DNA of 64,000 nucleotides from contig NC_015666.1 in NCBI RefSeq assembly GCF_000217715.1, forward strand, positions 632,270 to 696,269. Direction: 5' to 3'. Below are positions 47,894-50,821 of the stretch, piece after piece. The notes under the pieces are model-generated. The model ran no database searches, had not been told where the DNA came from, and saw nothing but the letters and a program-made list of their open reading frames with translations. The translations under genes were made by a program, and so were the position numbers. Position 1 is the first letter of the stretch, and the number at the start of each line of letters is the position of its first letter. Source of the DNA: Halopiger xanaduensis SH-6 (lineage in GTDB: Archaea; Halobacteriota; Halobacteria; Halobacteriales; Natrialbaceae).

Positions 47894-47976
47894 ACAGTCA
47901 CGTACGGGGACTGGTTTGAAAAATACACTGCTACAGTCGGAAAGACCTATTTAGCCGGCTATGACATGTGCAGGTA

Positions 47977-49245
47977 ATGGACGGGAAGGGGCTGCGAGCC
48001 CTGCTTTGCGCGCTCGTAGTAGTCGGGTGCCTGTTCGCGGTCGCGCCGATCGGCGCACCGTTTGCGGCCGCGGACGCCGGGAACGGCGGCCCGAACGCGC
48101 TGGCACAGCAGGACGAGGGGCTGTCGCAGACGCAAACGCAACGGATGCAAGGAAACGGGAGCGGACAGGAGGGGAGCGACCAGCTCGACGACGCCGACGA
48201 GATACACATCGACGTCTTCGTCCGCGAGAACGGCTCGGCGAGATTCGTCGTCGACTACCGGTTCGAAAACGACTCCTCGGGCGACTGGGAGGCGCTTCGG
48301 GAGGACATCGAGGCCAACGGCGACACGTACGTGGCCGACGAGATGGACGCCTGGAACCGGACCCTCGAGGACAGCGCGAACGCGACGGACCGCGAAATGC
48401 ACCTCGAGAGCGGCGCGATCGGGACCGACACGAGTACGCAGCCGCGGAACCTCGGTCACGTCCAGGTTTCCTTCGAGTGGGTCAACTTCGCCTACGTCGA
48501 ACTCAATCGGATCGAAGTCGGCGACGTCCTGACCGGCATCGTCCTCTCGCAGGACACCACGATGGAGGTGTATCCGCCGGAGGGATACGTCATCAGCGAG
48601 GACGAATCTTCGACGGAATCCAACGAGGACTCGGTGTTCTGGCAGGGCGACAGCACCGATTTCACCGCCGATCCGCCGACGGTCGTGATGATCGAAAACG
48701 GCGACACGTCGAACGAGTCGGCGAACGCGACGCCGAACTCGGGTGCATCCGGCGAGCAAGGGCAAGGGCAGGGGCCGGCGATGCGGTGGGTCATCGTCGC
48801 GGGCGCGCTCGCGCTGCTGGCGGCCGTCGGCGCCGCCGGGTGGTGGATCCGCGATCGAGGGATTCTCGGCCCGAGTCCGGCTCCCGAATCCGGGGCCGGC
48901 GGCGGTTCGCCGCCGGCCGAGAGCGCGGCGAACGGCGGCGAGACGACGTCGAACGGGCCGCCGCCGGAACTGCTGAGCAACGAGGAGCGCGTCCTCCGCT
49001 TGCTCGAGCAGCGGGGCGGACGGATCAAACAGCAGGCGGTGGTCTCGGAACTGGACTGGACCGAGGCCAAGACGAGCCAGGTCGTCAGCGGCCTGCGCGA
49101 GGACGGCGAGATCGAGGTGTTCCGGATCGGCCGGGAGAACGTGCTGTCGCTGCCCGACGAGGGCGACGGCGGGAACCACAACGTGCCGTCGGGACCGGGA
49201 AGCGGTTCGGCGTCCGATCCGGAGACCAGCGCCGGAAAGGAGTGA
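47977..49245 (+). CDS. Membrane-anchored protein with cytoplasmic winged helix
   Basis: This is a 422-residue protein from the ATG at 47977; a GTG at 47968 is possible. It has a signal or membrane segment (LRALLCALVVVGCLFAVAPI), an ectodomain of about 200 residues with beta segments and sequons, a membrane helix (WVIVAGALALLAAVGAAGWW, about 270), a Gly/Pro/Ser linker and a winged helix (NEERVLRLLEQRGGRIKQQA, QVVSGLREDGEIEVFRIG). It would pass an external signal directly to DNA. CTATTTA at 47948-47954 suits a short leader. Confidence 0.8.
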   Translation: MDGKGLRALLCALVVVGCLFAVAPIGAPFAAADAGNGGPNALAQQDEGLSQTQTQRMQGNGSGQEGSDQLDDADEIHIDVFVRENGSARFVVDYRFENDSSGDWEALREDIEANGDTYVADEMDAWNRTLEDSANATDREMHLESGAIGTDTSTQPRNLGHVQVSFEWVNFAYVELNRIEVGDVLTGIVLSQDTTMEVYPPEGYVISEDESSTESNEDSVFWQGDSTDFTADPPTVVMIENGDTSNESANATPNSGASGEQGQGQGPAMRWVIVAGALALLAAVGAAGWWIRDRGILGPSPAPESGAGGGSPPAESAANGGETTSNGPPPELLSNEERVLRLLEQRGGRIKQQAVVSELDWTEAKTSQVVSGLREDGEIEVFRIGRENVLSLPDEGDGGNHNVPSGPGSGSASDPETSAGKE

Positions 49246-49281
49246 CGCGCTCGCGGTTCGGCCCGTAGAACCCGTGTAACA

Positions 49282-49298
49282 CTTGCCAAGCGGGCAAG
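49282..49298. promoter_or_regulatory. Inverted repeat before the argG-leader TATA box
   Basis: CTTGCC at 49282-49287 and GGCAAG at 49293-49298 form perfect 6-base arms with a 5-base spacer. The repeat abuts the TATA-like TTTAATA (49300-49306), covering the position of the transcription factor B recognition element. A regulator bound here would block or help promoter use. Confidence 0.55.
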
Positions 49299-49312
49299 CT
49301 TTAATACCACGA

Positions 49313-49440
49313 AGTAGTATAGAGCCACCAATGAGTCAGTCCGTCGGCGCCACGCTCGCCGTTCTCGGTACCGACGGGTCCGTTCTGGCGCGGCGGCCGC
49401 GGCGACCGCGACCGGGCCTTTGAGCCCGTACTATACTACT
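49313..49440. repeat. Inverted repeats bracketing a short reading frame
   Basis: AGTAGTATAG at 49313-49322 and CTATACTACT at 49431-49440 are perfect 10-base inverted copies lying 8 bases before and 7 bases after the short frame 49331-49423. Such bracketing could sequester the region in RNA if the transcript starts upstream, or be two half-sites for one regulator. Confidence 0.5.
49331..49423 (+). CDS. 30-residue Arg-rich leader peptide upstream of argG
   Basis: The frame encodes MSQSVGATLAVLGTDGSVLA followed by RRPRRPRPGL and a stop. Five of the last ten residues are Arg (codons CGG, CGG, CGG, CGA, CGA). A TATA-like TTTAATA at 49300-49306 would start transcription near 49329, so it has its own leaderless promoter. 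It lies about 155 bases upstream of argG, the first arginine gene. Arg-rich leaders can sense charged tRNA-Arg by attenuation, but argG also appears to have its own promoter (TTTAAG at 49544-49549). Confidence 0.5.
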   Translation: MSQSVGATLAVLGTDGSVLARRPRRPRPGL

Positions 49441-49579
49441 ACCCCACGTCCCGGTTCGTTCCAACGTTCCACCGTTGCAAGGAAACCCCCAATTTCCGGT
49501 TAGCAGCCGCTCTACCTTTAATTTTCTCGTCTTAAACCAATGAATTTAAGTCCGTCCTTCCGTTTCACTCGAGTACGAC

Positions 49580-50821
49580 ATGACCCGCGTGGCACTTGCG
49601 TTCTCGGGCGGCCTGGACACGACAGTCTGTGTCCCGCTGCTCGAGGAGGAGTACGGATACGACGAAGTAATCGGCGTTACGGTGGACGTCGGCCAGCCGG
49701 CCGAAGAGTTCGAGGAAGCCGAGGAAACCGCCGAGGCGCTCGATCTCGACCACTACGTCGTCGACGCGAAAGACGAATTTGCGGACCTCTGTCTCGAGAG
49801 CGTCCGAGCGAACGCGACCTACCAGGGCTACCCGCTCGGCACCGCACTGGCGCGACCCGTGATCGCGAAGGCGATCCTCGAGGTCGCCGAGGAGCAGGAC
49901 TGCGACGGCATCGCCCACGGCTGTACGGGCAAGGGCAACGACCAGCTCCGGTTCGAGGCCGTCTGGCGCGACTCGGATCTGGAAGTCATCGCGCCCGTGC
50001 GCGAACTCGGCCTGACCCGCGAGTGGGAACAGGAGTACGCCGACGAGCGCGACCTGCCCGTCGAGGGCGGCAGCGGCGGCGACTGGTCGATCGACACCAA
50101 CCTCTGGAGCCGCTCCGTCGAGGGCGACAAGCTCGAGGATCCGAGCTACGTTCCGCCGGAGGAGATCTACGCCTGGACCCAATCGCCCACCGGCGACAGC
50201 CAGGAGATCGAAATCGAGTTCGAGGAGGGCTACCCCGTCGCCGTCGACGGCGTCGAGTACGAGCCCGTCGAACTCATCCAGCACCTGAACGAGGTCGCCG
50301 GCCCCTACGGCGTCGGTCGCACGGACTCGATGGAGGACCGCATGCTCGGCCTGAAGGTCCGCGAAAACTACGAGCACCCGGCCGCGACGACCCTGCTGAA
50401 CGCCCACGAGGCCCTCGAGGGCCTCGTGCTCACCCAGGAGGAACGCGAGTTCAAGCAGCTGATCGATCAGCGCTGGGCGAAGAAGGGCTACGAAGGACTG
50501 GTCGACGCGCCGCTCGTGAGCGCGCTCGAGGGCTTTATCGCGGAGACCCAGAAGCGCGTCACTGGAACCGTCACGATCCGCTTCGAAGGCGGCCAAGCCC
50601 GCGCGGTCGCACGCGACAGCACGTTCGCGGCCTACTCGGCCGAACACGCCTCCTTCGACACGGAGACGGTCGGCAAGATCAAGCAGGAGGACGCCACCGG
50701 CGTCGCGAAGTACCACGGCTTCCAGCGCCGCCTCGCCAACGAGGCCATCGCGGCCAACGCCGAGGACGCGGAGGAGGTCGAACTCGCGACGGACGGTAGC
50801 GGCGACGAAACTGACGAGTAA
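49580..50821 (+). CDS. argG: Argininosuccinate synthase
   Basis: The 413-residue enzyme joins citrulline and aspartate with ATP to make argininosuccinate. The PP-loop ATP motif is LAFSGGLDTTVCVPLL (about 6-21), then DVGQPAEEFEEAEE, GTALARPVIAKAI, AHGCTGKGNDQLRFE, and substrate residues in GRTDSMEDRMLGLKVRENYE. It leads the arg cluster. Its promoter is probably TTTAAG at 49544-49549, giving a leader of about 10 bases. Seven bases separate it from argH. Confidence 0.97.
   Translation: MTRVALAFSGGLDTTVCVPLLEEEYGYDEVIGVTVDVGQPAEEFEEAEETAEALDLDHYVVDAKDEFADLCLESVRANATYQGYPLGTALARPVIAKAILEVAEEQDCDGIAHGCTGKGNDQLRFEAVWRDSDLEVIAPVRELGLTREWEQEYADERDLPVEGGSGGDWSIDTNLWSRSVEGDKLEDPSYVPPEEIYAWTQSPTGDSQEIEIEFEEGYPVAVDGVEYEPVELIQHLNEVAGPYGVGRTDSMEDRMLGLKVRENYEHPAATTLLNAHEALEGLVLTQEEREFKQLIDQRWAKKGYEGLVDAPLVSALEGFIAETQKRVTGTVTIRFEGGQARAVARDSTFAAYSAEHASFDTETVGKIKQEDATGVAKYHGFQRRLANEAIAANAEDAEEVELATDGSGDETDE

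Follow-up and report, generated by a model that had tools for sequence, protein, structure and literature searches.

The arginine gene cluster of Halopiger xanaduensis SH-6 is preceded by a short reading frame that ends in a run of arginine codons. The best explanation for this frame is a leader-peptide attenuator read by the ribosome, to which we assign a probability of about 0.65. Judged by its sequence features, the frame is very likely a translated leader that senses arginine decoding in cis, and the output of that sensing is rather probably transcription termination. The analysis covered 64,000 nucleotides of the genome (the window), and all positions are those of the window.

The leader frame is 30 codons long followed by TGA. 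Arg codons make up 5/10 of its final codons (CGG at 49391, 49394 and 49400; CGA at 49403 and 49409), and 156 nt separate its stop from the argG ATG at 49580. The original prediction had described a leaderless frame at 49331-49423 with five Arg codons in its last ten, about 155 bases from argG, and translation confirmed these coordinates and counts. It had also proposed that CGG and CGA are rarer than CGC in neighboring genes, which agrees with the codons of the six cluster genes (CGC 71, CGG 21, CGA 4, CGT 3). The two hairpins listed below, A and B, were not mentioned there. The features of the locus are as follows.

49300..49306, + strand: TATA box TTTAATA, putative leader promoter, 31 nt before the leader ATG
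49331..49423, + strand: leader frame, 30 codons plus TGA, translation MSQSVGATLAVLGTDGSVLARRPRRPRPGL*
49341..49347, + strand: hairpin A, 5' arm, CCGTCGG
49371..49377, + strand: hairpin A, 3' arm, CCGACGG
49391..49411, + strand: Arg tract, CGG CGG CCG CGG CGA CCG CGA
49413..49417, + strand: hairpin B, 5' arm, CGGGC
49421..49423, + strand: stop codon TGA, in the hairpin B loop
49424..49428, + strand: hairpin B, 3' arm, GCCCG
49429..49453, + strand: tail after hairpin B, G-poor and C/U/A-rich, 2 G in 25
49522..49526, + strand: TTTTC, short form of the Haloferax intergenic terminator motif, a T stretch and then C (motif as described in PMC7237163)
49545..49549, + strand: second TATA box TTTAA, within TTTAAGTC, 35 nt before the argG ATG
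49580..50821, + strand: argG, argininosuccinate synthase, first gene of the arginine cluster

The first TATA box has the spacing typical of a leaderless haloarchaeal transcript, and the transcription start at the leader ATG is putative. Formally the open frame could begin as early as a TTG at 49283, but this TTG is upstream of the TATA box. Under a strict rule (ATG, TTTA(A/T) 29-35 nt upstream, frame of 15-45 codons), both strands of the window contained exactly one frame, namely 49331-49423, and its stop sits in a hairpin loop. The downstream protein was identified as argininosuccinate synthase (NF010392, 659 bits, above the cut-off). It is followed by argH, lysW/argW, lysX/argX, argC, argB, an argD-like transaminase and argF; the transaminase scores under the curated cut-offs of the models shown. 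The leader peptide matched no protein family in Pfam or NCBIfam. A search of 48800-50000 found no Rfam family at gathering score, T-box and other leader families included; the sole weak match, M23 at 48903-48956 (22.1 bits, gathering 41.2), lies outside the leader. The 425-residue gene upstream, at 47968-49245, had no NCBIfam match at E 1e-10.

A leaderless Arg-rich frame stands 5' of argG in 80/80 haloarchaeal loci, the window included. This set consists of the window and 79 of the best 80 of 127 argG loci, one locus (L065) having been dropped where its contig ends before the leader, and it leans to close relatives because it was taken from the best 80. It spans Natrialbaceae, Haloferax, Halobaculum, Haladaptatus, Halorientalis, a Halococcaceae MAG and others. 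The start codon is ATG in 79 leaders and GTG in one (L056). A TATA-like box was placed 28-34 nt before the start by script in 78/80; the other two, L007 and L029, escaped the box pattern, were included manually, and carry CTTAATA by eye. Leaders are 22-37 codons long, with longer ones in 6/80. A density of 3 or more Arg per 10 codons is reached by all 80 frames and was itself one of the criteria for picking them. In a sample of 59 genomes drawn evenly from the class Halobacteria, our own genome counted in, the leader was found in 58 (56 by script, L283 and L284 by eye), and a narrower box with ATG starts only still recovered 52/59. The sole genome among the 59 in which it is absent, G033, has an argG that is only 60% identical. 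The original prediction had proposed checking whether the frame and its Arg run are conserved, and both are kept in these 80/80 loci and 58/59 genomes. Outside the class, 23 of 53 genomes were scanned. Of these loci, 1/23 had an ATG frame that combined a TATA-like box with 3 Arg in 10 codons; some Arg-rich ATG or GTG frame, promoter disregarded, occurred in 12/23. Since only this one outside locus has an Arg-rich frame with a box, the leader is a feature of the Halobacteria in the genomes sampled.

By eye, the peptides differ between families except for the Arg run and positions constrained by the hairpin. The C-termini vary (PGL, PGR, AL, AR, GSP, LWA), and many leaders end in RRPGR, RRPGL or similar. 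The Halohasta/Halonotius-type leaders (L045, L053, L054, L055, L076, L082) share the peptide core QRRLRRL. In 5/6 of them the stop lies outside a hairpin with four GC pairs, as in a different version of the device.

Codon choice in the leaders differs from that in the gene they precede. The 561 leader Arg codons of the 80 loci comprise CGA 278, CGG 161, CGC 73, CGT 45 and AGG 4, while the 1444 Arg codons of argG at the same loci comprise CGC 1070, CGT 242, CGG 90, CGA 33 and 9 others. CGA thus accounts for 50% of leader Arg codons versus 2.3% in argG, and the rarest CGN codon of the argG genes is the commonest in the leaders. At least 3 Arg codons fall within the last 12 codons in 74/80 leaders, and the last Arg is at most 4 codons from the stop in 73/80, run-through frames included. 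With the last Arg so near the stop, a ribosome held at that codon would extend into hairpin B. A chance Arg-rich GC tract was considered as a separate candidate and is ruled out by phase, codon choice and conservation.

Read from 5' to 3', the TATA box and the start are followed by hairpin A, which lies within the frame, then by the Arg codons, by hairpin B, whose loop holds the stop, and by the G-poor tail. In 66/80 argG leaders the loop that contains the stop is closed by a helix of 4 or more GC pairs. A GC-rich tract by itself raises the odds of a hairpin, and with the flanks shuffled (100 shuffles) the mean was 16.7/80 and the maximum 25; argG's own stop codons lie in such a hairpin in 4/80. 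The corresponding figure in the class sample is 45/56 leaders. The 14/80 loci with a stop outside such a helix include the five of Halohasta/Halonotius type. Among 41 Natrialbaceae rows the frame ends at hairpin B in 37. The phase before hairpin B is off by one base in 11 Natrialbaceae rows, and 7/11 gain one loop base, so that the stop stays in frame. Frames that run past hairpin B to a later stop are found in L003, L006 and L012 (Natronorubrum) and L015 (Salinadaptatus). G in the tail was counted from the actual stop onward, so that in run-through frames the count does not begin at hairpin B.

The main helix of hairpin A is 87.8% paired in the 41 Natrialbaceae rows, with 25 cells changed on both sides compared to 9.2 in shuffles, a modest covariation. 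The covariation score exceeded 500 shuffles and all slid versions, although related rows can beat shuffles without structure. In other families the arms are of unrelated sequence at the same place (L062, L072, L078). Energy z-scores of hairpin A were modest, with a mean of -1.25 for argG (41/80 below -1), -0.78 for pheS (10/29) and -0.63 for ilvB (11/32). The window's own hairpin A has a z of only -0.73, and in the lowest-energy fold of its leader the Arg tract is paired, in place of hairpin A. The z is understated for Haloferax-type rows because the segment was cut before the 3' arm; the arms do pair in a longer fold of L066. RNAalifold, run on a MAFFT alignment, recovered hardly any consensus structure (-1 kcal/mol). 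Pairing between arms was compared with shuffles in 57/80 leaders, the four run-through leaders and those with fewer than 45 bases before the Arg cluster being left aside. Mean z was -1.84 within A and -2.12 within B. An antiterminator pairing of A with B was not found in these leaders (mean z -0.31 for the A 3' arm with the B 5' arm and -0.51 with the B 3' arm), nor among 17 folds. Together these values indicate two separate hairpins and no antiterminator.

Leaders of the same plan with other residues precede other genes. A common rule for promoter, length and hairpin was used, with residue thresholds per 10 codons of F 3, ILV 4, W 2, H 2, L 3 and R 3. Gene starts were taken as first ATGs, which is wrong in some loci (e.g. 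L160, L164, L169, L309). An Ile/Val-rich leader precedes ilvB in 25/29 class loci, 24 of them with the stop in a hairpin; L325 is doubtful among the 25, as it lacks the IVGA ending. Nearly all of the ilvB leaders end in IVGA or IVGV plus up to one residue (L135 has LVGAL), and in most (L120-L135, L312-L334) the stop is in the loop of a GUAGGGGC/GCCCCUAC-type hairpin. The pheS gene has a leader in 19/29 class loci, with the stop in a hairpin in only 12. These leaders mostly end in GFGFFF plus one to three residues (L107, L103, L108, L113, L117, L287 and others). In several pheS leaders a 9-bp inverted repeat of the CCGAATCCC/GGGATTCGG type joins the frame start to the Phe codons. A Trp-rich leader of WRWRW type was found before trpS1 in 3/9 loci, and a looser scan raised this to 5/9, one of them doubtful, with L154 counted although it overlaps the gene start; Trp-rich leaderless frames precede trpS1 in L156, L159, L160 and L161. 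The window's own genome has all three partners, before ilvB (L122), pheS (L107) and trpS1 (L156).

Control genes gave a matching-residue leader in 0/75 loci (trpD 0/14, trpS2 0/16 with L167 omitted, hisG 0/17, and two types of leuA, 0/14 and 0/14). An unrelated leaderless frame with its stop in a hairpin occurred in 5/75, and the looser scan added a single weak His frame at 1/17 hisG loci and, at 1/16 trpS2 loci, a misplaced Trp frame within the gene. No matching leader was found on either strand of 20 trpE loci, which reach only 1,500 bases beyond the match. Codon choice in the partner leaders also departs from that of their genes. Ile ATT is used in 43/58 cases in ilvB leaders versus 38/767 in ilvB, Val GTA in 41/82 versus 7/1753 (partly fixed hairpin sequence), and Phe TTT in 19/111 in pheS leaders versus 15/544 in pheS. 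In four gene families the residue enriched in the leader fits the enzyme encoded downstream, and no other single argument speaks as strongly for decoding of the matching tRNA as the thing that is sensed.

The spacer between leader and argG bears on how the signal would be used. A second TATA-like box lies 5' of argG in 72/80 loci and 38/59 class genomes, and there argG need not depend on the leader transcript. No such box stands at the usual place in the remaining 8/80 loci (L046, L058, L061, L062, L063, L069, L078, L080) and 21/59 genomes, all of which keep the leader. With no box before argG, transcription of the gene probably depends on the leader transcript at these loci. The spacers of the 8 box-less loci are shorter, with a median of 96.5 nt versus 144 nt. 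A TTTTC element (at least 4 T, then C) is present in the spacer of 52/80 loci, 51/72 with the box versus 1/8 without. By eye, the folds of several box-less loci point to an additional spacer hairpin, with an A/C-rich stretch between it and argG. At 49500-49515 of the window, and at the same place in relatives, a TAGC-n-GCTCTA-like element is visible 5' of the argG TATA box, possibly an operator.

Hairpin B is followed by no U-run in the window, and a terminator scan of 49200-49700 was negative. Neither sigma-70 promoters nor bacterial terminators were found in this region, as expected in archaea. Haloarchaeal rules differ, and either a T stretch or a hairpin can terminate transcription; in Haloferax, 59% of transcripts ended at a hairpin tested in a reporter and 95% at a T stretch plus C (PMC7237163). 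The original prediction had called the locus the textbook arrangement for attenuation by charged tRNA-Arg. Its core, a leader peptide sensing charged tRNA-Arg, appears sound, given a frame, Arg run and rare codons that occur class-wide and matching leaders at ilvB, pheS and some trpS1 genes. The textbook arrangement is not supported: antiterminator pairing was not found, the U-run is lacking, and most loci have a second TATA box. These three features are also a poorer fit with termination.

The mechanism that we infer builds on what can be read in the DNA, namely the box at a fixed distance, the frame, the Arg run, the rare codons, the stop in hairpin B, hairpin A and the parallel leaders. A leaderless transcript would begin at the leader ATG and the ribosome would load at once. 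As RNA polymerase moves on, hairpin A would fold behind it and might make it pause until the ribosome comes. With arginine plentiful, the ribosome would clear the Arg codons, reach the stop in the loop of hairpin B and depart. A ribosome reaching the stop must melt hairpin B, which would close on release and in this way report it. The closed hairpin, together with naked G-poor RNA behind the polymerase, would then end transcription before argG; the simplest output would be that abundant arginine leads to termination at hairpin B or beyond it. When charged tRNA-Arg is scarce, the ribosome would instead stall on the rare CGA and CGG codons, between the two hairpins and directly 5' of hairpin B. 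Its front edge would hold the hairpin open and cover the RNA, and transcription would read through into argG. Stalling and the direction of control are part of the proposal, as are translation itself and a role for hairpin A.

The same readout could in principle be used differently. In a scheme of ribosome-sensed control without termination at hairpin B, the leader transcript would end at the downstream T stretch regardless, and stalling would affect how stable the RNA is, how far the second promoter is interfered with, or how well argG is translated from the long transcript. The box before argG in 72/80 loci and the near confinement of spacer TTTTC elements to such loci are in its favor, but the 8 loci and 21 genomes where argG is probably leader-dependent have the same leader plan, and we consider this scheme unlikely, if worth keeping in mind.

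Other explanations dispense with tRNA sensing. A nascent peptide could arrest the ribosome at the stop codon and sense free arginine, in the style of the fungal arginine attenuator peptide; Arg does lie near the stop and many leaders end alike in RRPGR or RRPGL. The C-terminus, however, tracks the hairpin sequence and varies, the ilvB, pheS and trpS1 leaders bear other residues, and the rare codons point to tRNA decoding, which makes peptide arrest very improbable. We hold it just as improbable that the frame encodes a small basic protein acting in trans that stands before argG by chance. Its own promoter-like box and conserved frame would suit such a protein, and Haloferax expresses many small proteins (PMC4983044), but the peptide varies between families beyond the Arg run and the hairpin-constrained positions, matches no Pfam or NCBIfam model, and uses rare codons, and other genes are preceded by the same plan with other residues. 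Finally, the two conserved hairpins might belong to a structured untranslated RNA, a riboswitch or sRNA, whose CGN repeats merely resemble Arg codons. Against this, the Arg run stays in frame with the box-placed ATG despite varying frame length; codon choice, stop placement and the matching residues at other genes fit translation; and no Rfam family reached gathering score in 48800-50000. Such an RNA is the least probable of the explanations considered.

Taken together with its partners, the argG leader may belong to a class-wide leader-peptide regulon (Arg/argG, Ile-Val/ilvB, Phe/pheS, Trp/trpS1) built on its own plan, which we think reasonably probable. Under that plan a leaderless frame would carry a pause hairpin and then rare codons for the matching amino acid, and its stop codon would lie within the loop of a second hairpin, which signals ribosome release. 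In Haloferax volcanii, transcripts with mapped starts carry upstream frames of 26 and 23 codons before HVO_2948 (pheS) and HVO_A0127 (Trp-tRNA ligase), and these are possibly leaders of the same kind (PMC4983044). That paper describes them as small proteins with low isoelectric points, and argG is absent from its Table 2; the word attenuation is absent from the main text. Such leaders are not discussed in the available portions of PMC12482152 and PMC10433800. Among the literature matches listed, no report of these leaders was found by title or start of abstract; preprints, supplements and most subscription journals were outside the scope. According to a 2021 paper, no attenuation or antitermination is known in archaea (PMC8448881). 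If the regulon reading is true, archaea would have their first known attenuation system. Amino-acid genes would then be seen to be controlled at the RNA level in organisms whose mRNAs mostly have no 5' leader (72% of H. volcanii mRNAs are leaderless, PMC4983044). The leaders suggest that ribosome-sensed control, known in bacteria, exists also in archaea, and they bear on transcription-translation coupling there. They form a concrete class-wide candidate set in an archaeal class with genetically tractable species, and the question is therefore testable at once. Haloferax volcanii and Natrinema gari are laboratory strains, and arginine auxotrophs are available (PMC10433800).

Ribosome-mediated attenuators of bacteria are exemplified by the trp, his, ilv and pheST leaders. 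The haloarchaeal leader resembles them in having a short frame before a biosynthesis or tRNA-synthetase gene, a matching codon run and RNA hairpins. It differs from them in the leaderless transcript that is expected, in a stop inside the loop of the downstream hairpin, in a hairpin A upstream of the control codons, in the lack of antiterminator pairing and U-run, in being archaeal, and in the second promoter-like box at argG in most loci. As a mechanism it is like a bacterial leader-peptide attenuator, yet it is not a trp-type member, since the antiterminator was sought and not found. Attenuation of the pyrBI type senses RNA polymerase speed (UTP) and not tRNA charging. As in pyrBI, it would be the ribosome that keeps the downstream hairpin from closing, and an antiterminator would be unneeded; unlike pyrBI, tRNA charging is proposed as the signal here. 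The fungal arginine attenuator peptide senses free arginine by nascent-peptide arrest at the stop codon, and in contrast to it the haloarchaeal leaders show, by eye, no conserved peptide sequence across families apart from the Arg run. The tnaC and the arginine-linked speF leaders act by covering a Rho site, and here too a stalled ribosome would shield naked RNA from a termination factor. In place of Rho, archaea use aCPSF1/FttA (PMC8116511, PMC8448881), for which a site at the leader is hypothetical. If the regulon reading is true, the leader system of the Halobacteria probably arose apart from the bacterial ones.
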